Positions 3-56,158 of a stretch of DNA of 64,000 nucleotides are shown here, one piece after another (the stretch's first letter is position 1; each line of letters opens with the position of its first letter). The notes below the pieces were generated by a model that saw only the letters and a list, made by a program, of their open reading frames with translations, was not told the DNA's origin and searched no databases. This stretch comes from Cantharellus purpuraceus (lineage: Eukaryota; Basidiomycota; Agaricomycetes; Cantharellales; Hydnaceae), in the NCBI GenBank assembly GCA_025174535.1, contig JALBUN010000010.1, positions 1,488,001 through 1,552,000 of the forward strand, given 5' to 3'. The position numbers and the translations under genes are program-made.

Positions 3-629
3 GTTAGTAAAATATCTACTGTCTTTGTTAAAAAAGAACCAGAGGATGATGAAAATCCTTTGTATATAGACTCTGACACCATCTACATAAAATTCAGATT
101 AAGAAATCCCCCAAAGGACTTCTTTCCAGCTGGATTGGTTTCTCAGGAAAGAGATAAAACACCAGAAGCACTGTACAATAAGATGATTGAAAAGGGCAAT
201 GAAATAAGTAATTCAACCTGGATTCAACAAAATCATTGTATGTCAAGTCTGCAAACCATGCAACAGGATAATCTGCCTAGTTGTAATATTTCTATTGCTA
301 GAGAAACTGGCAAGAAGTGTGATATTTCTATTGCTGGGGAAACTTGTAAGAACTGTGATGTGTATAACAATTTGGTTACGTCAATGGTTGTTGCATTGAA
401 ACAACAGCAGAGAGTTTTCAAGAAAAGTAAAATCACAATCTATGGTATGATCATAACTAAGGATGGTAGGTTAAAATTATATGAAACCACCAATAACAAT
501 CAGGGTGTTTCAATTGTTGTATATCCTTCCTCTGGATACAGCATAGAAGCTCAGTTTGAAGAGTGTTCTAATGCTATTGACATTATATTCCAAAGTATAA
601 GAAATCAGATGTTCAAAGAATCCTCATAA
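3..629 (+). CDS. Unrecognised protein, 5' end outside window
   Basis: The frame is open from base 3, so the coding region starts left of the window; 208 codons are visible and it stops with TAA at 627-629. The visible protein begins with an acidic stretch (KKEPEDDENP) followed by a lysine- and asparagine-rich, AT-coded sequence. A Cys-containing near-repeat lies around bases 270-360 (CNISIARETG / CDISIAGETC / CKNCDV). No membrane segment or known catalytic motif is visible. The next genes to the right run on the opposite strand. I do not recognise the family; it may be a host gene or part of an unrecognised mobile element. Confidence 0.55.
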   Translation, partial: VSKISTVFVKKEPEDDENPLYIDSDTIYIKFRLRNPPKDFFPAGLVSQERDKTPEALYNKMIEKGNEISNSTWIQQNHCMSSLQTMQQDNLPSCNISIARETGKKCDISIAGETCKNCDVYNNLVTSMVVALKQQQRVFKKSKITIYGMIITKDGRLKLYETTNNNQGVSIVVYPSSGYSIEAQFEECSNAIDIIFQSIRNQMFKESS

Positions 630-715
630 GGAGTTGATTTAAAAGTCCTAGTTTCTACACTCACAACATTTTTCATCTATTTTCACTTGGATAATTTCAA
701 GATTTGAACTTTTGT

Positions 716-871
716 TCACACAACAATAAGTACCATTAGTATCATGATGAGTATTTTTGAATGTTCAGAGCTCTTAGGACATTTAATATCCTTACAATCT
801 GTAACTACAGATGTAGTAGTTATATGATTGCACTTCCAAGTAATTTGAATTTTTTCACTATCACCACACAT
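716..871 (-). CDS. Possible 51-aa Cys/His-containing small ORF
   Basis: A minus-strand frame with ATG at 871 and TGA at 716-718; the frame is open a little further upstream. It contains the spacing W-K-C-N-H followed by D-C-x4-C-x2-S-x2-H, which could bind a metal, then a hydrophobic C-terminal tail (ILIMILMVLIVV). It lies downstream of two other minus-strand ORFs. It may be an exon or remnant rather than a whole gene. Confidence 0.25.
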   Translation of the reverse strand: MCGDSEKIQITWKCNHITTTSVVTDCKDIKCPKSSEHSKILIMILMVLIVV

Positions 872-922
872 GCCTTCATTTGAGTGAATAAAAATATTGC
901 ATATTCACTTATCTGATTTATC

Positions 923-1102
923 TTATACTTGTTGTAGTGCACGTAGTGGTAGCTGAATCTCATTGTCATCATAAGTAACAGTTATTAGCAAAGTGTCATC
1001 TGACAAAGTGCCAGTTACTAATGTAACAATACCTGTCACTGTCATTTGTGTTCTTGCATTGATAAATGATACCTTATCACCAATCTCAGGTATATTCAAC
1101 AT
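923..1102 (-). CDS. Small 59-aa ORF, unknown function
   Basis: ATG at 1102-1100, TAA at 923-925, no internal stop. The product (starts MLNIPEIGDKVSF, ends LPLRALQQV) alternates hydrophobic and polar residues like a small all-beta domain (KVSFINARTQMTVTGIVTLV...DDTLLITVTYDD split by one turn), reminiscent of SH3/KOW-like folds; that comparison is an inference from the pattern only. It starts 38 bp beyond the stop of the upstream minus-strand gene, so it could be a downstream exon or a separate small gene. Confidence 0.35.
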   Translation of the reverse strand: MLNIPEIGDKVSFINARTQMTVTGIVTLVTGTLSDDTLLITVTYDDNEIQLPLRALQQV

Positions 1103-1140
1103 GGTGTCTCTGGTTATTATATATTAATTTTAAAAACTCA

Positions 1141-1850
1141 TTATTTCTCATCTAATTTCCTATCAAGTATATCTACAAACTTCTTAAATGCTTCAAAACA
1201 CTGTAGAACATTCTTTCTACTATTAATATGTTTCATACCTGTTACTGTTACAGGGAAACAACACCATACATTTGTTATCACTTCTGAAAACAACCCTTCT
1301 GTGATAGCATGATCAAGCTCTCTTGTAACAGTTACTAGGTAAAACTGGGGGACTTTTCTCGATGTTTGAATGCAAGGTATTGTCATTTCCTCTAAAGCAC
1401 TTTTTCCCTTATTCTTCCTAATCTTGTTATTCAATTGAAAAACTGCTATAGCTCTTGCTATAATCTGCGGTTCTGGATTTATCTGATTTGTGTTCTCATG
1501 TTTAAAAAACAGTATCTCATTATCATTTTTTATAACACACATCTCTATAACATTTCTTGTTATATTTCCCCTCACATTCATAGGGATTTTATTATGAGTG
1601 ATGATTAATCTTTCATCCTTGTCATATTTCATAAGAAAGAGCACTTCTCTGGTAAAATCATTAACCAATGTAGATCCTTCCCTGACTCTAGTAGATCTAT
1701 CTAAGTATGTAAAAAATTTTCTTGAAGACTCCTTTAAACATTTCACATCATCTTTTTGTAATCAAAACTGAGGATCTCATCATCAATATCTAAAGTAATA
1801 TCTCTAAAATCTGTCTCAAAAAACTGTTTAGTCCATTGTGTGTCAACCAT
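1141..1850 (-). pseudogene. Fungal PD-(D/E)XK-like hypothetical protein, split by a 1-base frameshift
   Basis: Two overlapping minus-strand frames together give about 236 residues. The first runs from ATG 1850 (MVDTQWTKQFFETDF...) and stops just after a run of five A (about 1752-1756); the second continues the same protein to 1141. One more A in that run would join ...SFDYKK to DDVKCLKESS. The middle (EMCVIKNDNEILFFKHEN, then PEPQIIARAIAVFQLNN) resembles a basidiomycete hypothetical family in which D-x-C-V...LLVQEDK...PEPQ-IAEAIAAFQ looks like a PD-(D/E)XK nuclease core; I recall this family, I have not searched. Here the expected acidic and lysine positions are altered, so catalytic activity is doubtful. 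Could be a sequencing error in the A run. Confidence 0.5.
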
Positions 1851-2444
1851 TATACCATAATCCCAAAGATCACGAGAACTCCAATCATTGCACTTCTTAT
1901 CTTTACCCATGATGTCAATAAAGAAGGATATATAAAATTTATTTCATTTTTTACTAGATATGTGCATAGTTCTGAAGAGCAGAATGGTGAATCAAATCAG
2001 AATGTTGTAGTAAACATCCATATTTTTATCTAATATTTATAAATTGAATTATATATATTTTCTAAAGTTGTCAATAGCCAGATGCATGCACTCGTTCTGA
2101 ATACTACAACAAAGTCCCATACAGAATTCCCTGTCCTTTCATCTATCATTCTTCTACCAGTTCCTTGTTTCCTATCTTGCCAGTCTTTCATTCCAAATTC
2201 TTTGCTGCATAGCTAAATAGGTGTACCAGCCGATTGGATATTATCATATCATGGTAATGACGTCGGATGGAAGGTCACCTTGTCAGGAGCAGTTTGATCA
2301 CATTATCAAAGGACAGCCTTTTGGCTGTGAGGGTTGATAATGATGCACTTACTGAGCAGACAGTAGGTGAGACTTTGCAGCGGCATGGTGTACCAGATAA
2401 TTGAATCGTTGTCCTTGAGCAGCCCGATGATGTTACTCAGTGTC
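1851..2444. other. No gene recognised
   Basis: AT-rich sequence with only short frames. A plus-strand 65-codon frame here has no recognisable features and overlaps the 5' end of the minus-strand gene. I see no repeat family from this window in it, apart from a 20-base similarity (2274-2295) to 3018-3040. Confidence 0.4.
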
Positions 2445-3045
2445 GGTTCGCTTAAGGAATAGATCCTAGCAAACAGACGGTGTGTAACGCAGTTGTTCAG
2501 CACTCCAAAGATCAATCAGGGTGAGGGGTAAGTAACAGGGAAGTGGGATAGTGCTCTGTGGTTGGATGGGGATGGGAGCTAAAGGTCGGTCCCAATGGCT
2601 GATCGTGCTCTGTGACTGGATGACAATGTGGAGCCCAGTTGGAAGGTACGCGAAAGCTGGTTTCAGGAGAAGCAACCTCTCGGTGGCGGAGGGAAATCTG
2701 ATCGTTGAACCAAGGTGTTTTACCCCAGTGTAGAGATGATGGATTGTGATGTAGAGTGTAGACTTAGAGCTTGGACTTTGACTTTAGAGCGTTGGCTGAA
2801 AACTTGTTTTTTGATTCCAAAGGCGAAAACTAGCGCCCTTTTATATACAAATTCCCAGGGCACAACGACACAATATGAGGAGCAAATGATGCAAGAAATG
2901 CTGATCAAGCCAGCTGATGAAGCGTGTGAAGTTGAGCTACTAAAGGGGAAATCATGGAGAAATGAAACGACAGATAGGGACATCATTAGACTGCTCATGG
3001 ACAGCCATTCACTCCAAGGTGACCTTGTCAGAAGCATGGAATGCC
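2445..3045 (+). mobile_element. Ty3-2 internal non-coding remnant
   Basis: This stretch matches 46487-47065 closely (for example the shared block around 2465-2510 / 46527-46575 and the purine-rich block 2860-2990 / 46920-47055). At 46.5-47.0 kb the same sequence lies just downstream of the Ty3-2 integrase/chromodomain, so this is a detached piece of that element. Small frames inside are not conserved between the copies. Confidence 0.6.
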
Positions 3046-3073
3046 TTGTATCCTACGTCTTCGGAGGCTTACA

Positions 3074-4183
3074 TTACTGGGTTCTCCCTCTACATCTTTT
3101 TCTTGAACTAGGAATTTGAGATTGATCAGACTCTGAATCAGATTGATCAGACTCTGAATCAGATTGATCAGAGTCTGAATCAGATCGTTCCTTAGACCTT
3201 TTTTCTTGATGCCTTGAACTAGGAGTTTGAGATCGTTCGTTAGACCTTTTTTCTTGATGCCTTGAACCTTGAGTCATTCCTTGCTTCCATGTTTGAAAAT
3301 TAATCCTATTACCATCTACATCATATGATGACATTTCATTCTTCCTAGTATATATTGTAGATAGTTTTCTAGGCTCACCATTTATGAATAATTCCATTCT
3401 ATTTAGTCTACAAGACTGATCTGAGTCTATAAGTATATAGTCTACACCTCTTTTCACTATCTTAAATGTCACCTTTCTGGTACCATTTTCCTGTAACCTT
3501 GTTACCTCCTGTTCTTGTTTTCCAGCCCAGTGATTCATATCAAATTTCCAGTCAACAATCTCAGATATTATTGCTTTATATTTATCACCCTGTTTCTGAA
3601 GTTTATTAATGTCTGTTCCAAGTTCCACTACAGTATCATCTGTTTCTACAATCCACTCATGCACTTCAGATTTCCATTCCACAATGTCTGATATTGTTGC
3701 AATACATCTATTAACCTGTTTCTGAAGTTTATGAATATCTGTTCTATGGTCCAATATACGATTCTCTGCATTATGTGTATTGACCTGTTGATGAATATCT
3801 GTTCCATGGTCTGATATTGTGGCAACACACCTATTAACCTGTCTCTGAAGTTTATGAATAACTGTTCCAAATCCTGATACAACATCATTCATTTCACTCA
3901 CCCGTTTATCTAAATTCTCTTTCCTGTATGTCAAAGTAGTTATAATTGTATTTTTTTCCTCAACCTGTTTCTTAAGCACCTGAATTTCCTGACTCTGGGA
4001 ATTAACCTGTTGTTCAAGCATAGTGATCTGCCTATCCTTTTCACTCATCCAAGACTTGACATTTATAAGATCAGATATTAATTCATCTTTTACTTCCATT
4101 TGACTTGCCATAGCTTTTATCAGTGCATCATTGTCACTTATCCAGCCTTTGATTGCTTTTATATCTTCAAAGATTTGTGGCAT
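3074..4183 (-). CDS. Coiled-coil protein with Ser/Asp/Gln-repeat tail, 369 aa
   Basis: Continuous frame from ATG 4183 to a stop at 3074-3076 (an in-frame TTG 6 bp upstream is not used here). Residues about 1-230 are heptad-rich with repeated K-x-L-Q-x-Q-V blocks and three related units (KLQRQVNRC, KLQKQVNRC, KLQKQGDKY), indicating a long coiled coil built by internal duplication. Residues about 235-300 look globular (VTFKIVKRGVDYILIDSDQ). The tail is basic and Ser-rich, then a 21-bp tandem repeat (about 3118-3185) encodes DQSDSES units. No membrane segment. It is divergent from the 92-aa gene at 4330 with 146 bp between the starts. I do not recognise a family; scaffold-like or mobile-element-encoded are both possible. 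Confidence 0.6.
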   Translation of the reverse strand: MPQIFEDIKAIKGWISDNDALIKAMASQMEVKDELISDLINVKSWMSEKDRQITMLEQQVNSQSQEIQVLKKQVEEKNTIITTLTYRKENLDKRVSEMNDVVSGFGTVIHKLQRQVNRCVATISDHGTDIHQQVNTHNAENRILDHRTDIHKLQKQVNRCIATISDIVEWKSEVHEWIVETDDTVVELGTDINKLQKQGDKYKAIISEIVDWKFDMNHWAGKQEQEVTRLQENGTRKVTFKIVKRGVDYILIDSDQSCRLNRMELFINGEPRKLSTIYTRKNEMSSYDVDGNRINFQTWKQGMTQGSRHQEKRSNERSQTPSSRHQEKRSKERSDSDSDQSDSESDQSDSESDQSQIPSSRKRCRGRTQ

Positions 4184-4329
4184 TTTCAAATCCCTCTCTG
4201 CTTATAAAACAGAAATGAAAAAACATAATAATCATTTTTTCTGAACATTTGATATTTTGTATAGGCAGTAGATATATACATCTTGCTTTCTTAATAAAAT
4301 GATTATTATGTTTTTATGTTATAAGCATT
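4184..4329. promoter_or_regulatory. Divergent promoter with 20-bp perfect inverted repeat
   Basis: The gap between two divergent starts contains a perfect 20-bp inverted repeat: AAAAACATAATAATCATTTT at 4219-4238 and its reverse complement at 4296-4315, with a 57-bp AT-rich spacer. The symmetrical placement fits a shared operator or a hairpin affecting both genes; that role is inferred from position only. It could also be the ends of a tiny fold-back element. Confidence 0.45.
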
Positions 4330-4656
4330 ATGAAGATGCTCTCTTTTATGCTTCAATGCAAGATAGAGTTTGATAGAAGAGTTAATGATTGGTATATATC
4401 TCGGATAGGATCCCTCCATGATTTGTTTCTGAGGTAAGTTCCTTTATAAATATCAAGGTTCCAATCACTGACTTTATACAGATGTACTGATGGCACACTT
4501 CTGGAACAGAAATTAACAGAGTTATATACTAGTATGGAGCAGGATCATTATTTTCCACCACTTTGGATGGAAAATCTGATGGTATTGCACCCTAAAGTAC
4601 GAGGGATAGTCATACAGTCTTATGTTAGAACAAGATTATCTACCACTATGCCCTAA
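4330..4656 (+). CDS. Small spliced gene, 92-aa unknown protein
   Basis: Two exons, 4330-4433 and 4482-4656. The intron (4434-4481, 48 nt) has a GTAAGT donor, a CTGAC branch-like site near 4468 and a TACAG acceptor, all typical of basidiomycetes. The joined frame starts MKMLSFMLQCKIEFDRRV, crosses the intron at L-R|C-T-D, and ends with TAA at 4654. The second exon is open for all of its 58 codons only in this frame. The product is mixed charged/hydrophobic with no motif I recognise. The clean splice signals are the main evidence that it is real. Confidence 0.5.
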
Positions 4657-4722
4657 CTAAGTTACTTTGTTTTAAAAATAGCTTCACTGCATTAAAGGTG
4701 TTTGTTTCCAAGACTTTCCTAA

Positions 4723-5286
4723 GACGCTTATTCAGAAATACAACAAATACATATGTACAACCTATTTTCCTCAAATTTTATACAATACACTTCAATTCAA
4801 ACTTATTTTCATATTTCAACATGATTCTCAAATTTTACACAATATACTAGATTAAAACATATTGTGATATTTTGGCATAATTCTCAAAAATAATTCTTTT
4901 TCCCCATTTAGTGGTGGCAACTCTCTTGAAGGAACATCCAAATATCATTGATTCTTTCTTATACAATACTTGTAACATAATTTGAACTATCTTTAGTCCC
5001 CACCTGGTATTTGTATATCTAAATACCCTATATAATACCAATTATATTAATACATACATTCCTATTATATCCATGTAAATGATTATGTTCATCTCAACCA
5101 AATATCTTATCTTTTAAAGTTTATTAAAATATAGAATATATGTTTATATTTATGAAAATTTCACACATCCGAAATCTTTTAAGATATCCAAATTGTAACT
5201 CCCTGGCTTTATGTATCATTGAAATCCTGATGTATATCTCCTATACATCAGAATATTGTATACTGACATGATTCCGAACAAGCGTC
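4723..5286 (-). mobile_element. MITE copy M1 (PIF/Harbinger-like)
   Basis: A 564-bp element with terminal inverted repeats of about 18 bp (inward GACGCTTATTCAGAAAT at the left, GACGCTTGTTCGGAAT at the right), flanked by TAA (4720-4722) and TTA (5287-5289). Near-identical copies are at 8774-9284 and 52748-53312 in the other orientation. The 3-bp TWA-type duplication and short TIRs are the signature of PIF/Harbinger MITEs. The small frames inside are not convincing genes. It appears to interrupt copia reverse-transcriptase sequence. Confidence 0.75.
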
Positions 5287-5289
5287 TTA

Positions 5290-6576
5290 TATGTGCCATA
5301 GCTTCTAGAAACAAACAATTGGGAGATTGAGCAAACCGATATAGACAGCACCTATCTCAATGCACCATTGAAGGAGACAATCTACATGTGGCAGCCAAAG
5401 GGCTATGAAGTTCCCAGTAGGGAACACCAGGTCTGTCTCCTGCAATGTGCAATCTATGGGCTGAAGCAAGCTGGAAGGGAGTGGTATGAGTTGTTATCAA
5501 GAGTCTTATATGATCTAGGATACTCATGCTGCAAGGTTGAGCATGCAGTCTTCTACAGACACACCTTCTCAGACAGTATCATCATTGTGGCCGATGTAGA
5601 TGACCTAATGATGACCGGCAGCAGCAAATCAGTGGTCCACAAGTTCAAGGACCAGCTACATATCAGATTCAAGATAAAAGACCTGGGTGAGTTATGTTGG
5701 CTGCTCAGAATCGAGATTGAATGAGAACGCACTACACATACCATTTCATTCTTGCAGAAAGCCTATATCACGAAGATATTAGAGCGATTTGGGATGGAAA
5801 ATGCAAATTCACTTGTGGTGCCACTCAACCCACAGGACAAACTGAGCATTAGTCAATGCCTGTCCACACCACGTGAACACGAAGCCATACCAGGAAGCAA
5901 TTGGCTCACTAATGTGTGCAGCCCTCGGCACCTGCCCAGACATTGTGTTCGCAGTAATCTTCTTATTGCAGTTCATGCAGAACCTGGGAAAGCCGCACTG
6001 GGAGGCAGTGAAAAGGGTATTCAGATACCTAAAGGGAACCGTTAGCCAGAAGCTAGTGATTGGAGAATGAGGGAACTTTACCTGGGCACAACCTATGCTA
6101 CAGAACCGCAATGGGCTGGAAGGATTCACCAATGTGGATGGCAGCACACAGGAACACCGGCATGCAATCTCCAGCTACATATTCACCATAGACGGTGGTG
6201 CCATATCCTGGAGCTCAAAAAAACAGTCAATTGTCATGCTATCCACCACCAAAGCAGAGTACATCATGGCCACTCACGCAACGAAAGAAGCCATGTGGAT
6301 TCAAATGTTCATATCTGAGATCATGTGACCACTTTCCAAACCAGTCACACTGTACTGTGACAACCAGTCAGCTATTGTAGTGTCGAAGCAACAAATTCCA
6401 CTCATGAATGAAACATATTGATATCCAGTACCACTTTATCTGTGACGTGGTACAAAGAGGACTCACATCTGTCCACTACTGCCCAACTAGCGACATGGCT
6501 GCTGACATGCTCATGAAACCACTCACCTTGCCGGCACTCACACACCTTACTGAGTTGGTGGGACTACATCGAGCTT
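5290..6576 (+). pseudogene. Ty1/copia Pol 3' part: reverse transcriptase and RNase H, decayed
   Basis: Starts within the RT domain (W-E-I-E-Q-x-D-I...YLNAPLKE near 5320-5375), passes the copia motif Y-G-L-K-Q-A-G-R-E-W (about 5455-5490) and a Y-x-D-D-like site changed to VADVDDLMM (5590-5610), then the connection and RNase H regions (DGSTQEHR, ISWSSKKQSIVMLSTTKAEY near 6135-6260) and the typical terminus ending LTELVGLHRA near 6575. TGA stops and at least two frameshifts break it. The order and motifs are those of a Ty1/copia Pol polyprotein. The 5' part is lost or separated by MITE M1. Confidence 0.85.
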
Positions 6577-6857: not shown

Positions 6858-7371
6858 GTCCAGCCTACCGATTTGGAGCAGGCTAAGATTGCTGATGTTG
6901 TGTAATGGTTGTGCTCAGATCATGTGCCTGTAGTTAGTTCCCAGAAGCCATGTGCAATTAGTCAATGTGTCAGTTGATGTTTTGAGAAGCTTTGGCCTGT
7001 ACTTGTAAACCAGGACCATGAGTCCTGGTCTCCTTGCTCAATCAACACCAGTAATTGACCTTATAGTCCATTCATTCTATTAGTTCCCTTACACTTGATC
7101 AGTTTGATTGAGCCACCCCATCTACTATGCCCATGCCCTCTATTCCCATCCAACCCATGTCCATCCCACAGACTCCTGGACAAACAACCTGGAGACTGCC
7201 AGTAGTGACATCAGCCTTCCTACTGAATCACCTGATGAGTGGCTGAACTTCATCCTCAGCTCATTTGCCTAATTCTCCACCATTTCCAGTGGTCTCATGA
7301 CCAGCCAGCAACAGTTATATGATGTGATCAACACCCTAACCTCAAGTACCTGTCACATCAATGACTGGTGT
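6858..7371 (+). other. Hairpin-rich remnant between the copia LTR and LTR-H
   Basis: No open frame of significance. It contains short inverted repeats of the same style as the H element, for example ACCAGGAC/GTCCTGGT at 7009-7029 (8-bp stem, 5-nt loop) and AGCCT/AGGCT near 6863-6885. It may be the decayed 3' or leader region of the H-type element or of the copia element. Confidence 0.35.
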
Positions 7372-7649
7372 TGTAAGTACCCAGGGTACTTACTTACTAT
7401 AGTATGTAGTTATATAGTCATAATTAATGTATGCAGCATTCCATTAAGGAAATGCTGTCTTCTTGGTAGATATATGCACCCATAGGGTGCATATGTATAG
7501 TTATTATGTAAGCCAGTGGACCCAAGTACATGTGTGGGTCCACATGTAGTAGATAGAACTTAGTTAACTACCACACTGTACAACACATTGCCCAACCAAT
7601 ATACTTGGTTGAGTCTGTGCAACAGTGTGAACTAAGACACACATTTACA
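7372..7649 (+). mobile_element. LTR-H copy 1 (TGTAAG...TTACA)
   Basis: A 278-bp segment beginning TGTAAGTACC and ending TTTACA, so the ends are short inverted repeats of LTR type. The second copy, in reverse at 55359-56158, has the same 5' boundary. It precedes the H gag ORF. The LTR is itself tiled by hairpins (see the repeat entry). LTR status is inferred from its ends and its position before gag; no paired LTR lies in the window. Confidence 0.5.
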
Positions 7650-8680
7650 CTTTTTTGAACTTCCAAAGGAAGAATCAACTGATTCTTCCTCATTATTGAA
7701 GTTTTCTAGTCAATACTAGAAAACCAGCTGTTGCTGGTGTACAGACATATACCAACCCCCCCAGTCACTCATATAAGTGAGCAACTAGTAGACTAACTTA
7801 GTTAGTCTACAAAGATAGAAGAAAGAAAGGAGTCATCATAATGATGATTCACAGTAGAGTGAGTTGTGCTAGCAGCACCCAGGACATCATAAATGATGAA
7901 TGGCGGCGCATAGCCAGCAGCAGAAGCTCCCAGGAAGGGGAGCTAGACCCTAGAGAAGTCACAGGGACTTCTCATAAGGAAGACCCTAGAAGAGAGTCAC
8001 CACAATCGCAAGACTGCACAGACAATCACACAATAGATTGTCTGTCAAACAAGAACCCTTCATCAAGTGGTTCTTTGATTAGAGAAGAAAGGAGGAGACA
8101 GTCATCAACTGTCTCCAATGTTCCTAAAGGAAAGGAATGTGCTCAATATATGAGCACAAGTAGAAGTAGCAATACTTCTACTAGGGAATTGCACAGCACA
8201 GAGTGGCATGAAACCCACAGGTCAATTGCAAGATTGACCAAACAACTCATGTGCAATCAGCATGAGATGAAGAGCATTAGCAAAGCTAGTGCTCAGGCAG
8301 CTAAGATGGCTGCTGAAGCAGGGCATGCTGCCACTACTATGGTGCAGCAAATTGCAGAGCTAGGAACAATGTTAAAATTACTCCAAGAGAATTCTGAGCA
8401 TTGCAAGTCATGTCGCTGAAGATCAGATTCTCGACAAGAATCTGAATCCAGAGAGTCTGGATCTCCCCAGGGTGAGAGGATCCAACTGAATGATTGGTTA
8501 GGCAGAGGAAATGAAATTTCCCCAATGGAGGGAATTAGAGACCCAGTAATCCCTGTGAGGCAAGAATTACTGATCCAGATTGAAGAGGAAACTCCTCAAT
8601 CTATGACAAAGGAGCTTGATCAAGAGATCAAGCTATGGAAACAATGAGAAGTTGAGGCTTCTCGTAAACACAGGTTAGCC
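7372..8680 (+). repeat. Tiled array of short perfect stem-loops in LTR-H and gag
   Basis: Perfect hairpins follow one another through non-coding and coding sequence. Stem/loop/stem positions: 7472-7481/3 nt/7485-7494; 7516-7523/12/7536-7543; 7667-7676/4/7681-7690; 7701-7710/4/7715-7724; 7788-7797/3/7801-7810; 7925-7931/6/7938-7944; 7953-7960/5/7966-7973; 8018-8027/8/8036-8045; 8094-8102/5/8108-8116; 8038-type TGTGCTCA at 8138-8145/5/8151-8158; 8159-8168/4/8173-8182; 8220-8226/6/8233-8239; 8424-8431/5/8437-8444; 8456-type ATCCAGA at 8446-8452/3/8456-8462; 8613-8621/4/8626-8634. Stems are 7-10 bp with loops mostly 3-8 nt. The tiling continues in 9886-10180. Confidence 0.85.
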
Positions 8681-8773
8681 CTCAAACGGAAGACTAAACA
8701 TGCAGAGCAGGAGCTTGGCCAGCTGTTTAGAGAGCAGTGGCCCCAGCAAGAGCTCAATGTGGCTGTCGATTTA

Positions 8774-9284
8774 GATGCTTGTTCAGAATCATGTCATCAT
8801 ACAATATTCTGATGTATATGAGATATACATCAGAACTTCAATGATACATAAAGCCAGGGAGTTACAATTTGGATATCTTAAAAGATTTTGGATGTGTGAA
8901 ATTTTCATAAATATACACATATATTCTATATTTTAATAAACTTTAAAAGATAAGACATTCAGTTGAGATGAACATAACTTTTTATATGAATATAACAGTA
9001 ATGTATGTATTAATATAATTGGTATTATATAGGTTATTTAGTTATACAAATACCAGGTGGGGATTAAAGATGGTTCAAATTGTGTTACAAGTATTGTTTA
9101 AGAAAGCATCAATGATATTTGGATGTTCCCTCAACAGAGTTGCCACCACTAAATGGGGAAAAAAAGAATTATTTTTGAGAATTATGCCAAAATATCAAAA
9201 TATGTTTTTAATCTAAGTGTGTTGTGTAAAATTTGAGGAAAATAGGTTGTATATACATATTTGTTGTATTTCTGAACAAGTGTC
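8774..9284 (+). mobile_element. MITE copy M2
   Basis: A 511-bp copy of the M1/M3 MITE: left end GATGCTTGTTCAGAAT, right end ATTTCTGAACAAGTGTC, exact TSD TTA at 8771-8773 and 9285-9287. The uninterrupted gag sequence is seen in the second H copy near 54520-54545, so the insertion point within the coding region is clear. Shorter than M1 and M3 because of an internal deletion. Confidence 0.8.
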
Positions 9285-9365
9285 TTAAACTGACAGTCAT
9301 GACATGTGCTGAACAGTTATCAGTGTGTACAAGTGGCGGGCCTTTGAGGAGACACCTGCCATGAG

Positions 9366-9880
9366 TGTTATGACTATATTCATTAACGCCCAGATCCCCA
9401 TCTGATCCCCTCAGATCCCCGCGCATATGAAATCTATACTCCATTTGGAAACCACTACGTCTCCATTTTCCTGTCCAATTGTCACCGCTGATTCTGCCCA
9501 TCCATCTCCGGTTCCGATTGATGCATCAGCATCACCATGGGAACCCAGACATCCGTCCCCATCGGACTCGGACATACTCATGTAAGGCCGTTGGCCTTGG
9601 AGACCCATCACTGGAGTAATTATTATTAGATTTCAAATATGTATTTAAGTTGCCGACTGGGGACTCCATTCCCCAGTTTGAATATTGAATCACGCCTAGC
9701 TCCTAAGTCCGATCCTAACTCTGTAAGTTGTACTCCATCTCCGAAATCTCAGACACCAGTATTAGTGAGGGCGCAGCACATAAGCTGAAGCCAAGTCCGT
9801 TCCGACCCCCATGACGTACTCCGACTCCGACCCAACCTCTGACCCAATCTCCGACCCCCAATCGGACCCAGTGCGTAACA
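9366..9880 (+). mobile_element. Solo LTR-A, copy a
   Basis: 515 bp, TGTTATGAC...GCGTAACA, flanked by the exact 5-bp duplication ATGAG (9361-9365 and 9881-9885). Orientation is given relative to the Ty3-2 Gag-Pol. It is inserted in H gag; the empty site is visible in the second H copy near 54433. A solo LTR results from LTR-LTR recombination after a full insertion. Confidence 0.88.
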
Positions 9881-10214
9881 ATGAGCAATGAGATACCCAA
9901 TGGGTACCTCAAGATGTTCCCCATAACAGGGAACAATCAACACCATTGACCCTAGAAGGTCAAGGCATACCGGATCAATTGGACACAATTGATCCAATTG
10001 ACGGCATTACTCACATGGTGCAAGTAGCCATAGTTGATAATAGAAATACAGACCCAGAGAAGTCTGTACTCGCCAAGGTGGGCATTAAGGTATCACCTCC
10101 TGAGCAATATGCAGGAGGCACAGATCTCAAAGAGTTCAAGATCTTTGTATCAGGTATGCTACGATGGCTGAAGATGAATAATCTCCTAGGGTGTTATGCA
10201 CTAGGTCTGATTGG

Positions 10215-52268: not shown

Positions 52269-52747
52269 TTCCAAGGCAATCACCTGATCTGATCATCAAT
52301 CACCTGCTCTGATCCCTGAACTAGGCACTGATCAGGCAAAAAGAAGAGTATCCACCCTGTTTTCTGCACTGGTTTGCACAGCCATGGATAGCCACATCTC
52401 AGGTCAAGATCTCCATGGAAAATAGTGCCCTAAGAGGCTGTGGTTGTCAAGTTACAGAATATTTATTGATCAGAGACATCTGAGCCTGAATTCAGGCCAA
52501 ATGCCTGGTCCAAAGGTGGAGAGCCGACTGTGGGAAGGTTTGTGGGCGCCTATGGGTCCACAACTGTAGCACAGCAGAATAAGAGCATTCTGGGCCGAGT
52601 TCTGCATGGAATATTCCAAAAAAATATGTAAGAAATAGAGAATATTTGAATAAGTCCATTCCAGGTACAAGCACCATAAATATGCTGATATTTAGGAATG
52701 GAAACACAAAGTATAGCACATTGGTGCTGCATAAATAGGATTTGATA

Positions 52748-53312
52748 GACGCTTGTTTGGAATCATGTCAGTATACAATATTCTGATGTATATGAGATAT
52801 ACATCAGAATTTCAATGATACATAAAGCCAGGGAGTTACAATTTGGATATCTTAAAAGATTTCAGATGTGTGAAATTTTCATAAATATAAACATATATTC
52901 TATATTTTAATAAACTTTAAAAGATGAGATATTTGGTTGAGATGAACATAATCATTTACATGGATATAATAGGAATGTATGTATTAATATAATTGGTATT
53001 ATATAGGGTATTTAGATATACAAATACCAGGTGGGGATTAAAGATAGTTCAAATTATGTTACAAGTATTGTATAAGAAAGAATCAATGATATTTGGATGT
53101 TCCCTCAAGAGAGTTGCCACCACTAAATGGGGAAAAAACAGTTATTTTTGAGAATTATGCCAAAATATCACAATATGTTTTAATCTAGTATATTGTGTAA
53201 AATTTGAGAATCACATTGAAATATGAAAATAAGTTTTAATCTAAGTGTATTGTGTAAAATTTGAGGAAAATAGGTTGTATATACGTATTTGTTGTATTTC
53301 TGAACAAGTGTC
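52748..53312 (+). mobile_element. MITE copy M3, with known empty site
   Basis: 565 bp, GACGCTTGTTTGGAAT ... CTGAACAAGTGTC, with the duplication ATA at 52745-52747 and 53313-53315. The uninterrupted LTR-B sequence (ATTTGATAGGGAAAAGGTGG) at 49698-49717 gives the empty site, fixing both ends and a 3-bp TSD. Confidence 0.85.
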
Positions 53313-53337
53313 ATAGTGAAAAGGTGGTTCCCATACA

Positions 53338-55190
53338 GCTGACCTTACGTTGCCCTTTAATTTGGGGCAGCTAGGTCACATGTGACCTGTCTGGCCACAT
53401 TTGTAGCACACAATGTTACTACTAATGTTGTTCGATCAATCACCACTCACGTGTACTGGTGGTTTCAATTGATAATGACCCTTGAAAGGGTAATTGTTGG
53501 AATTGAACCCAGAGCTTCCATTATGGGGTTCCAAACTCGATGCACTCACTTGTCGTGAGTGTGTGTTGGGAGCCATATACACACATCCTTGGGGCATGGG
53601 TTGACTCCCCATATTCATCATACCAGTAGTTCTATTGACTACTGGTCTATGGCTTGAGGAGGACACATTAGTCATGTTCTCTGGGTGTCACATACCGTGG
53701 TGGTATCACGTCACTCCCTCAATCATTCGAGCAGTTTCATACAACTGCTCAATACTGCTGAATTCAGCATTGAAGCCCTTCTTGAGGACTTCTTGTCTCA
53801 GAGGTTTGCACATTGCAGTTACAAACCTCTTCCTGTACATGTACATGTCCGGCGGCATTATCATGCGATCCATGTACTTATCTAGGTCGTTCATCAATTC
53901 ATGAATGGTCCTTTGACCCTGTATTACAGAGTCAAATTTATTTGACGCATGGTGATGCATCAAGGTGTGTAGGAATCTATGCTGCAATCCTTGGATTGCA
54001 GTTTCCAGGGTCCAGTTTTGGACTGCCCTGTTGTAATGTTCTACATTCCTGTAGAACCATTCCTGGGCCTTGCCTTTAAGGCAAGTGCCTAAGTACAATA
54101 GCTGAAACTTTGTACTTGATGGCCCTAGGAGATTATTCATCTTCAGCCATCATAGCATACCTGCTACAAAGATCTCAAACTCTTTGAGATCTGCGCCTCC
54201 TGCATATTGCTCAGGAGGTGATACTTTAATGCCTGCCTTGGCAAGTACAGACTTCTCTGGGTCTGTGTCTCTATTACCAACTATGGCTACTTGCACCATG
54301 TGAGTAATGCCGTTGATAGGATCAATTATGTCCAATTGATCCAGTATGCCTTGACCTTCTAGGGTCAATGGTGCTGATTGTTCCCTGTTATGGGGAACAT
54401 CTTCTTGAGGTACCCATTGGGTATCTTGTTGCTCATGGCAGGTGTCTCCTGAAAGGCCTGCTGCTCATACATGCTGATAACTGTTCAGCACATGTTGCAA
54501 CTGTTGATTCAAATTGACAGCCACATTAAGCTCTTGCTGGGGCCACTGCTCTCTAAACAGCTAGCTGAGCTCTTGCTCTGCATGTTTAGCCTTCCATTCA
54601 AGGGCTAATCTATGTTTAAAAGAAGCCTCAACTTCTCATTGTTTCCATGGCTCAATCAAGAGATTGAGCTCCTTTGCCATAGATTGAGGAGTTTCCTCTT
54701 CAATCTGGATTGGTAATCCTTGCCTCGCCGGGATTACTGGGTCTCTAATTCCCTCCATTGGGGGAATTTCATTTCCTCTGTCTATCCAATCATTTGGTTA
54801 GACCCTCTCACCCCAGGGAGGTCCAGACTCTCCAGATTCATTCTTGTCAAGAATCTGATCTTCAGCAACACAACTTGCATCACTCAGAGTTCTCTTGGAG
54901 TGATTTTAACATCATTCCTAGCTCTGCTATTTGCTGCCCCATAGTAGTGGCAGCATGCCCTTGCTTCAGCAGCCATCTTAGCTGCCCGAGCACTAGCTTT
55001 GCTAATGCTCTTCATCTCATGTTGATTACGCATAAGTTGTTCAGTCAATCTTGCAATTGACCTGTGGGTTTCATGCCACTCCATGTTGCATGATTCCCTA
55101 GTAGAAGTATTGCTACTCGTATATTGAGCACGTTCCTTTCCTTTAGGAATGTTGGAGACAGTGGGTGACTGTCTCCTCCTTTCTTTCTTC
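53338..55190 (-). pseudogene. H-element Gag, second copy
   Basis: Reading leftwards: the helical N-terminal region (EWHETHRSIARLTEQLMRN at 55084), the Glu/Gln-rich segment, IIDPINGITHMVQVAIVGN (54300), a Gag core (54140-53706: YLGTCLKGKAQEWFYRNVEHY), a Ser/Asn-rich linker and a CCHC knuckle, VCYKCGQTGHM-stop-PSCP (53370-53415), in which an in-frame TGA follows H-M. About 262 bp corresponding to 7830-8091 are deleted. Several TGA/TAA stops. Hairpins tile this copy as in copy 1. The Gag core with C-x2-C-x4-H-x4-C is typical of LTR-element Gag. Confidence 0.7.
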
Positions 55191-55358
55191 TATCTTTGTA
55201 GGCTAACTAAGTTAGTCTACTAGTTGCTCACTTATATGAGCAACTGGGGGGGTTGGTATACTTCTGTACACCAGCAACAGCTGGTTTTCTAGTATTGACT
55301 AGAAAACTTCAATAATGAGGAAGAATCAGTTGATTCTTCCTTTGGAAGTTCAAAAAAG

Positions 55359-56158
55359 TGTTATGGGTGTCTTAGTTCACACCATTGCACAGAACTCAAC
55401 CAAGTGTATTGGTTGGGCAATGTGCTGTACAGTGTGGTAGTTACTAAGTTCTGTCTACTATATGTGGACCCACACATGTACTTGGGTCCACTGGCTTATA
55501 TAATAACTATACATATGCACTAGGTCCGATTGGGGGTCAGAGGTTGGGTCGGAGATTGGGTTGGAGTGATGGTCAGAGTCGGAGAGGGAATCAGGGTGTG
55601 TCATGGGGGTTGGAACAGACTTGGCTTCAGCTTATGTGCTGCACCCTCACTAATACCAGAGTTTGAGATTTTGGAGACAGAGTATGACTTAGATGATTAG
55701 GATTGGACTTAGGAACTAGGTGTGATTCGATATTTGAACTGGGGAATGAAGTCCCCAGTTGGGCAACTTAAATACATATTTGAAATCTAATAATAATTAC
55801 TCCAGTGATGGGTCTCCAAGGCTGACAGCCTTACATGAGTATGTCTGAGTCTGACAGGGATGGATGTCCAGGTTCCTATGGTGATGCTGATGCATCAATT
55901 GGAACTGGACATGGATGGGCAAGATTCGGTGGTGACAATCGGACAGATACATGGAGACGTGATGGTTTCCAAATGGAGTATAGATTTCATATGCATGGGG
56001 ATCTGAGTGGATTGGATGGGGATCTGGGCATTAATGAATATAGTCATAACAGCACATATATCTATCAAGAAGACAGCATTCCTTAATGGAATGCTGCATA
56101 CATTAATTATAACTATCTAGCTATATACTATAGTAAGTAAGTACCTTGGGTACTTACA
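55359..56158 (-). mobile_element. LTR-H copy 2, split by LTR-A copy f
   Basis: Reverse copy of 7372-7649: ends GGGTACTTACA at 56158 and begins TGTTATGGG at 55359. About 262 bp once the LTR-A copy is removed. Hairpin CAGCATTCC/GGAATGCTG (about 56074-56096) is perfect here. Confidence 0.6.
55514..56051 (-). mobile_element. LTR-A copy f
   Basis: ATGCACTAGGTCC...AGTCATAACA; the first four bases of the LTR are not distinct because host and LTR share ATGCAC. The insertion sits exactly at the hairpin ATATGCACCC/GGGTGCATAT of LTR-H, whose loop side is disrupted. No clean TSD. Confidence 0.8.

Follow-up and report, generated by a model that had tools for sequence, protein, structure and literature searches.

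The element found twice in the window (the whole stretch of DNA analysed, 64,000 nt of Cantharellus purpuraceus) is a member of an old, decayed and CpG-decayed family of Ty3/Gypsy-type LTR retrotransposons, and is tiled with short perfect hairpins. The tiling spans LTR, leader, gag, RNase H, integrase and the 3' part. The sequence-only reading had noticed it in LTR and gag; it is present there, but is not confined to these parts and extends over the whole element. Neither chance nor codon use accounts for the tiling, which is absent from the three Gypsy relatives sampled in the same genome.

The element, its copies and its remnants

The genome was searched over 40.15 Mb in 50 contigs. It gives 148 matches to DUF6533, a family typical of mushroom-forming basidiomycetes. 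The DNA of LTR and gag has at least 42 matches, 86-93% identical, the window copy aside (40 of 463 candidates scored), the gag protein at least 135 (130 of 283 candidates scored). Twenty copies were sampled at ~10 kb, and then six, five and four smaller pieces. Copy L026 carries both LTRs (501-770 and 7981-8250), which begin with TG, end with CA, and are identical at 252 of 270 positions; ATGAA flanks this copy, the one examined, on both sides as a 5-bp target duplication. The identity of the two LTRs and the target duplication mark L026 as an old insertion. Part of a second LTR is also present in L018, and the 3' LTR is absent within the retrieved stretch in 18 of the 20 sampled copies.

No long gag-pol frame was found in the 20 loci: the longest stop-free stretch measures 420 aa, and the long ones lie partly in neighbouring elements. 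Recognisable remnants include parts of gag, a protease-like domain, RNase H and integrase. In L016, RT_RNaseH lies upstream of Integrase_H2C2 and SH3_Tf2-1, all over cut-off; rve and protease matches are below cut-off, and the RT core itself is without match. The family gag matches PF19259 below cut-off (E=0.0029). Relatives of gag, roughly 50-70% identical, number 168 among metagenome proteins, and many carry PF19259 or PF03732; no DNA of relatives turned up when viral_contigs and genome_contigs were scanned with an alignment of gag. At the place of a primer-binding site (window 7650-7675) no TGG directly follows the LTR, and the next 26 nt hold no complement to the LTR of 7 nt or more. An Rfam search gave a single match, far below cut-off.

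Parts of the two element copies in the window (positions of the window)
Feature	Positions	Strand	Hairpins and remarks
5' LTR, TGTAAG...TTTACA, 278 bp	7372..7649	+	stems of at least 8 bp at 7373, 7472, 7516
Leader	7650..7840	+	three 10-bp hairpins, 7667-7690, 7701-7724, 7788-7810
5' part of gag region	7841..8771	+	start inferred from the L027 frame; hairpins at 7953, 8018, 8094, 8138, 8159, 8423, 8613
Foreign insertion, MITE-like, outside the tiling	8772..9296	.	own hairpin at 8807; boundary by eye
Gag sliver between the two inserts	9297..9365	+	boundary by eye
Second foreign insertion, LTR-like repeat, outside the tiling	9366..9880	.	own hairpin at 9656; boundary by eye
Gag resumes, then is interrupted again	9881..10191	+	hairpin 9972-9995
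Second copy, LTR, split by an insert (about 55517-56049)	55359..56158	-	boundaries by eye
Second copy, leader and gag, including CCHC zinc-knuckle region	53310..55358	-	motif by eye

Leader and gag of the second copy, on the minus strand, repeat most of the hairpins of the first, with a gag match at C10:1541556-1542464. The hairpins of the two inserts recur in other copies of those inserts (52780, 55737). The MITE-like repeat resides at window 8772-9163, 4886-5287 and 52747-53148, inserted in or beside both element copies; at 8772 and 52747 it carries a hairpin of 13-14 bp (ATTCTGATGTATAT...).

About 3 kb separate the end of integrase from the 3' LTR in L026 (4684-7900), with stop-free stretches of 120, 139 and 199 aa. 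This region is interrupted by a foreign insert, and the element's own part is hairpin-tiled there too. In L043 (401-760) and L033 (2490-2740) the 3' end of the element lies inverted, directly before the leader or after gag, which suggests rearranged pieces in opposite orientation. A separate LTR, also tiled, was considered for these two loci and discarded, since by eye the DNA is the 3' end of the element itself, reverse-complemented, from a neighbouring inverted piece.

Abundance and shape of the hairpins

Hairpins were counted as perfect stems of at least 8 bp with loops of 3-12 nt. Window 7372-8772 holds 13, against 0.23 in dinucleotide shuffles (at most 2 in 100), and the second copy, scored in two parts, has 8 and 5, against 0.27 and 0.13; the remaining 58.3 kb of the window hold 17. 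In L026, 38 hairpins reside in 501-5829 (1.02 in dinucleotide shuffles) and 11 in 7021-8250 (0.20); in L016, the region of RNase H and integrase (3446-6285) holds 19 (0.56). No such hairpin lies in the foreign insert of 1,191 bp within L026. Mirror repeats, counted in three segments, came to 0, 0 and 1. Nine stop-free pieces taken from other copies have 2-9 hairpins each, a number which codon-preserving (synonymous) shuffling lowered to means of 0.10-0.58. Three other Gypsy loci of the genome, 43-45% identical in integrase, hold 0, 2 and 1 hairpins in 3.5 kb (0.4-0.7 in shuffles), a further locus of the element's own family 20 in 3 kb. L039, a mosaic which matches the family over short stretches only, has 2.

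The expectation that random sequence would give few such stems, voiced from the letters alone, is borne out by both kinds of shuffle, and the layout of the second copy, stated to be the same, is largely so. The hairpins quoted at 7667-7690, 7701-7724, 8018-8045, 8094-8116, 8159-8182 and 8613-8634 are all exact; the one past the inserts exists, but lies one base to the left of the 9973-9996 given for it. Nor do the stems vanish in a genome-wide comparison, an outcome set beforehand as fatal to the idea: they are found at the same places in dispersed copies. Over the 7,960 columns aligned, 128 stems with lengths of 6-11 bp are present in at least two copies (recurrent stems). Segments A, B, C and D are represented by 27, 21, 10 and 22 copies, many of which cover part of a segment, so that for the later segments the lower values, 8-15 per kb vs. 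20, are minimum densities.

In the native copies, stems of 7 bp number 122, of 8 bp 67, of 9 bp 71, of 10 bp 29, of 11 bp 7, of 12 bp none and of 13 bp one. A limit at about 11 bp is exceeded by stems of 13 bp in L018 and 12 bp in L043. Loop lengths of 0-12 nt are over-represented. Beyond these, counts stay close to background, apart from a small surplus up to about 24 nt and another at 31-60 nt. In segment A, the best covered, hairpins start on average 50 nt apart, at random spacing (gap CV 1.06 vs. 0.98 expected). Their density is 19.5 per kb in LTR and leader and 19.7 in the rest, mostly gag; the nine stems of LTR and leader have a mean length of 9.4 bp (SD 1.1). On our reading of the plus strand, GNRA loops make up 4 of 16 tetraloops in segment A, 0 of 11 in B, 0 of 4 in C and 0 of 1 in D; those of segment A are a weak hint of selection on RNA.

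The tiling of gag is compatible with codon choice. In a stretch of 909 nt, silent codons permit up to 22 non-overlapping 8-bp hairpins, the L012 copy has 9, and 14 of the 17 recurrent stems in the stretch measure 8 bp or more; an integrase piece permits up to 11, and 3 are present. Compared with 100 aligned relatives, out of 120 retrieved and 168 found, gag residues depart at 10 of 47 positions coded by stems and 19 of 86 others (columns at least 70% conserved); at 90% conservation the figures are 3 of 25 and 2 of 43, not significant. The codon registers of recurrent stems number 28, 28 and 18, with a weak shortage of the 3-3 register. The ratio of real to shuffled hairpin permissiveness is 1.99 in the family gag, 0.83-1.77 in 12 relatives and 0.47-1.20 in 14 control proteins. 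These 12, from the metagenome relatives P0001-P0120, seem more permissive than the controls and might also be tiled. Among distant relatives of gag, 23.5% of 1,157 cases would permit the same stem by silent codons, against 21.2% (SD 0.6) in permuted ones, a small excess with relatedness ignored; most stem positions look specific to the element's family.

Pairing, decay and divergence of the stems

Selection on folding of the RNA strand should make G-U pairs exceed A-C, and no consistent excess is observed. Just outside 88 stems, the first step that is conserved is G-U 6 times and A-C 15; among 31 conserved internal mismatches, G-U is found in 3, A-C in 5 and T-T in 2; over all stem cells, G-U counts 599 and A-C 713. 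Single internal mismatches in all cells lean the opposite way (G-U 38, A-C 29). Folding z-scores over 168 segments of the element average -3.03 on the plus and -3.08 on the minus strand (p=0.75), those of 129 control segments -0.37 and -0.32. On balance, Watson-Crick pairing and strand symmetry point to complementarity at the DNA level.

Of 1,322 stem cells which are not Watson-Crick, 853 (about 65%) are at CpG-type pairs, and the 23 variable stems printed show mostly changes of CG to TG or CA, in either arm. Where CpG steps face each other, at 20 places, the combinations are those of independent change: TG/TG was observed 74 times vs. 71.8 expected, CA/CA 65 vs. 59.1, TG/CA 58 vs. 62.0, CA/TG 73 vs. 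73.1. Since CpG decay is independent on both arms, the tiling came from the active ancestor, with no upkeep after insertion. Covariation was tried as proof of RNA selection and rejected, 56 of 69 multi-type Watson-Crick pairs being at CpG-type sites. Most apparent covariation is deamination, and the ancestral stems were therefore more perfect than the present ones. As a warning, facing CpG sites may mimic compensatory changes in methylated repeat families. Pair counts leave out L017, a near-duplicate of L016, and L020, 99.4% identical to L026 over 1,136 columns.

L029, L031, L033, L040, L041 and L043 form a second subfamily, of about 79-87% DNA identity with the references, which has nearly all stem pairs in common with the main one. 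Among 453 pairs found in the main subfamily and Watson-Crick there, 434 are unchanged in the other, 16 changed on one side and 3 on both; at non-CpG pairs, one-sided breaks and two-sided changes are 13 to 3. Over 501 pairs, 3 two-sided changes were counted where 0.66 are expected if the sides vary independently. Nearly all stem pairs are thus older than the subfamily split, and no ongoing creation of stems is seen.

Non-CpG columns which changed between the subfamilies are 28 of 1000 and 31 of 911 in stems, vs. 156 of 2108 in other columns; in stricter stem sets, 10 of 576 and 9 of 456. Loop columns are the class which changed most (37 of 346). Slower change of stems had been taken as proof of constraint (35/1027 vs. 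191/2425, p=4e-7), an argument weakened as stems were chosen as paired in the source subfamily. Because stems are found by their Watson-Crick state, their rate under neutrality is halved in each direction; the reciprocal rates, once summed, are 6.2% for the broad and 3.7% for the stricter sets, vs. 7.4% for other columns. What is left is a constraint mild in the broad sets and stronger in the stricter ones, in mild support of retention in the active lineage. Columns of mixed state were dropped from the subfamily tests, at thresholds of 75% (80% in one test) and 66%.

Inverted loops are a footprint of template switching. They were found in 12 of 1,369 cells, at 7 of 111 stems; 11 equal the reverse complement of the common loop, and one is one base off. 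Shifted control segments gave 16 in 8,297 cells, 11 of which are TTGA/TCAA (CpG decay), 2 re-detect a real inverted loop and 3 are other cases. The same LTR stem of L018 has the loop TAT in the 5' LTR (about 564-586) and ATA in the 3' LTR (about 9496-9518), which dates the inversion to during or after the last insertion of this copy. No arm-copying event creating a whole stem was caught among the copies.

Origin of the tiling and known systems

The account favoured here, tentatively, is that arm copying at the DNA level made the hairpins, and that stems no longer than about 11 bp were kept. The genome of the active ancestor would have consisted almost throughout of short hairpins, with stems of about 7-11 bp, loops of about 3-12 nt, and at least 8-20 hairpins per kb. 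We infer short-range template switching: in reverse transcription or replication, a strand being made at a small inverted repeat would take the opposite arm as its template. Where this spoiled proteins, or gave stems beyond about one helical turn, the event would be lost; the remaining hairpins would be kept in the active lineage, possibly as hairpin-rich RNA or cDNA helped the element. The whole genome may have been a hairpin string, each hairpin about one helical turn long and able to form on both strands, made by arm copying and retained since packaged RNA or cDNA works better so, a view we hold at somewhat less than even confidence. Arm copying had been among the roles imagined by the sequence-only reading. 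Watson-Crick stems, symmetric strands and inverted loops agree with it, but it leaves the limit at about 11 bp and the equal density in coding and non-coding DNA unexplained. Were the process blind and the proteins its only filter, coding DNA should have fewer hairpins, and the equal density counts against it. Against the favoured account also stand the age of nearly all stem pairs, the excess of one-sided breaks over two-sided changes between the subfamilies, the whole-stem creation looked for among the copies and not caught, the lack of arm correction after insertion, the weak hints of selection on RNA, and a length limit which is not absolute.

Selection alone, acting on point mutations in favour of a densely hairpinned genomic RNA or single-stranded cDNA, is rather unlikely; the benefit would be packaging by Gag at numerous places, shielding from RNase or from small RNAs, or better reverse transcription. 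LTR and leader are as dense as the rest of segment A and have stems of tight length, most recurrent gag stems reach 8 bp, stem-coded residues depart no more than others, and stem columns change less between subfamilies while loops change most, all of which selection would explain. Known functional RNAs use G-U pairs and are asymmetric between strands; the element does not use G-U consistently, its strands are symmetric, spacing in segment A is random and clear constraint is mild at most. Packaging structure or resistance to silencing, as initially suggested, may still play a part and has the weak GNRA hint in its favour, but the counts show no G-U preference, no strand asymmetry and no regular spacing. 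An unlikely reading is also the purely mutational one, in which reverse transcription copied arms at inverted repeats until the element was saturated, with no benefit, selection on proteins purging the harmful events. Watson-Crick pairing, strand symmetry, random spacing and loop inversions agree with it, as does the absence of tiling from the three sampled Gypsy relatives; against it, the length limit holds in non-coding parts too, coding DNA is equally dense, and arm correction at equilibrium predicts, by our reasoning, about 7% two-sided changes, seen in 3 of 453 pairs.

Short palindromic mobile sequences exist elsewhere, and the hairpins might be many insertions of such tiny elements. This is very improbable, as stem sequences differ, sit in coding stretches which match relatives, and occupy the same places across copies. 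Chance, base composition, codon usage or protein sequence have a negligible probability as the source of the tiling: gag is somewhat permissive, more so than relatives and controls, yet dinucleotide and synonymous shuffles, mirror repeats, the other Gypsy loci and the foreign insert refute this reading.

The element presents an unusually clear case of nucleic-acid structure spread over a whole mobile element, atop its proteins; untiled Gypsy loci and the foreign inserts serve as internal controls. Two questions become testable with it: whether a genome can be brought to hairpin saturation by template switching, and whether a retroelement gains from pervasive structure. The sequence-only reading knew of no described retroelement class of this build, and titles and abstract starts of the open-access literature searched contain no hairpin-tiled retroelement. 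We know of no reverse-transcribing element with a genome organised as a hairpin string.

With fungal Ty3/Gypsy elements the family shares LTRs, the 5-bp duplication, and gag followed by protease-like domain, RNase H and integrase with a Tf2-1-like SH3; the three other loci of the same genome are untiled, unlike the element, and to our knowledge no described member of the group is tiled with hairpins. Template-switch mutations are known to us as scattered single events, never as the design of a whole mobile element. A single template-switching event can create perfect stems (PMC8794818), and template switching or quasipalindrome correction is reported to make them (PMC7202029). The element resembles the products of such events in its perfect stems, and loop inversions are found in it. 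The dispersed packaging-signal stem-loops of MS2, STNV and HBV are likewise many and short along a packaged RNA; the element differs in having no shared loop motif beyond the few GNRA loops, random spacing and Watson-Crick pairing. Genome-scale ordered structure (GORS) of persistent positive-strand RNA viruses is the other likeness: folding energy is far below that of shuffles, coding DNA included, but the element is an LTR element and not an RNA virus, and has discrete short hairpins, no consistent G-U excess, and two strands which fold equally well.
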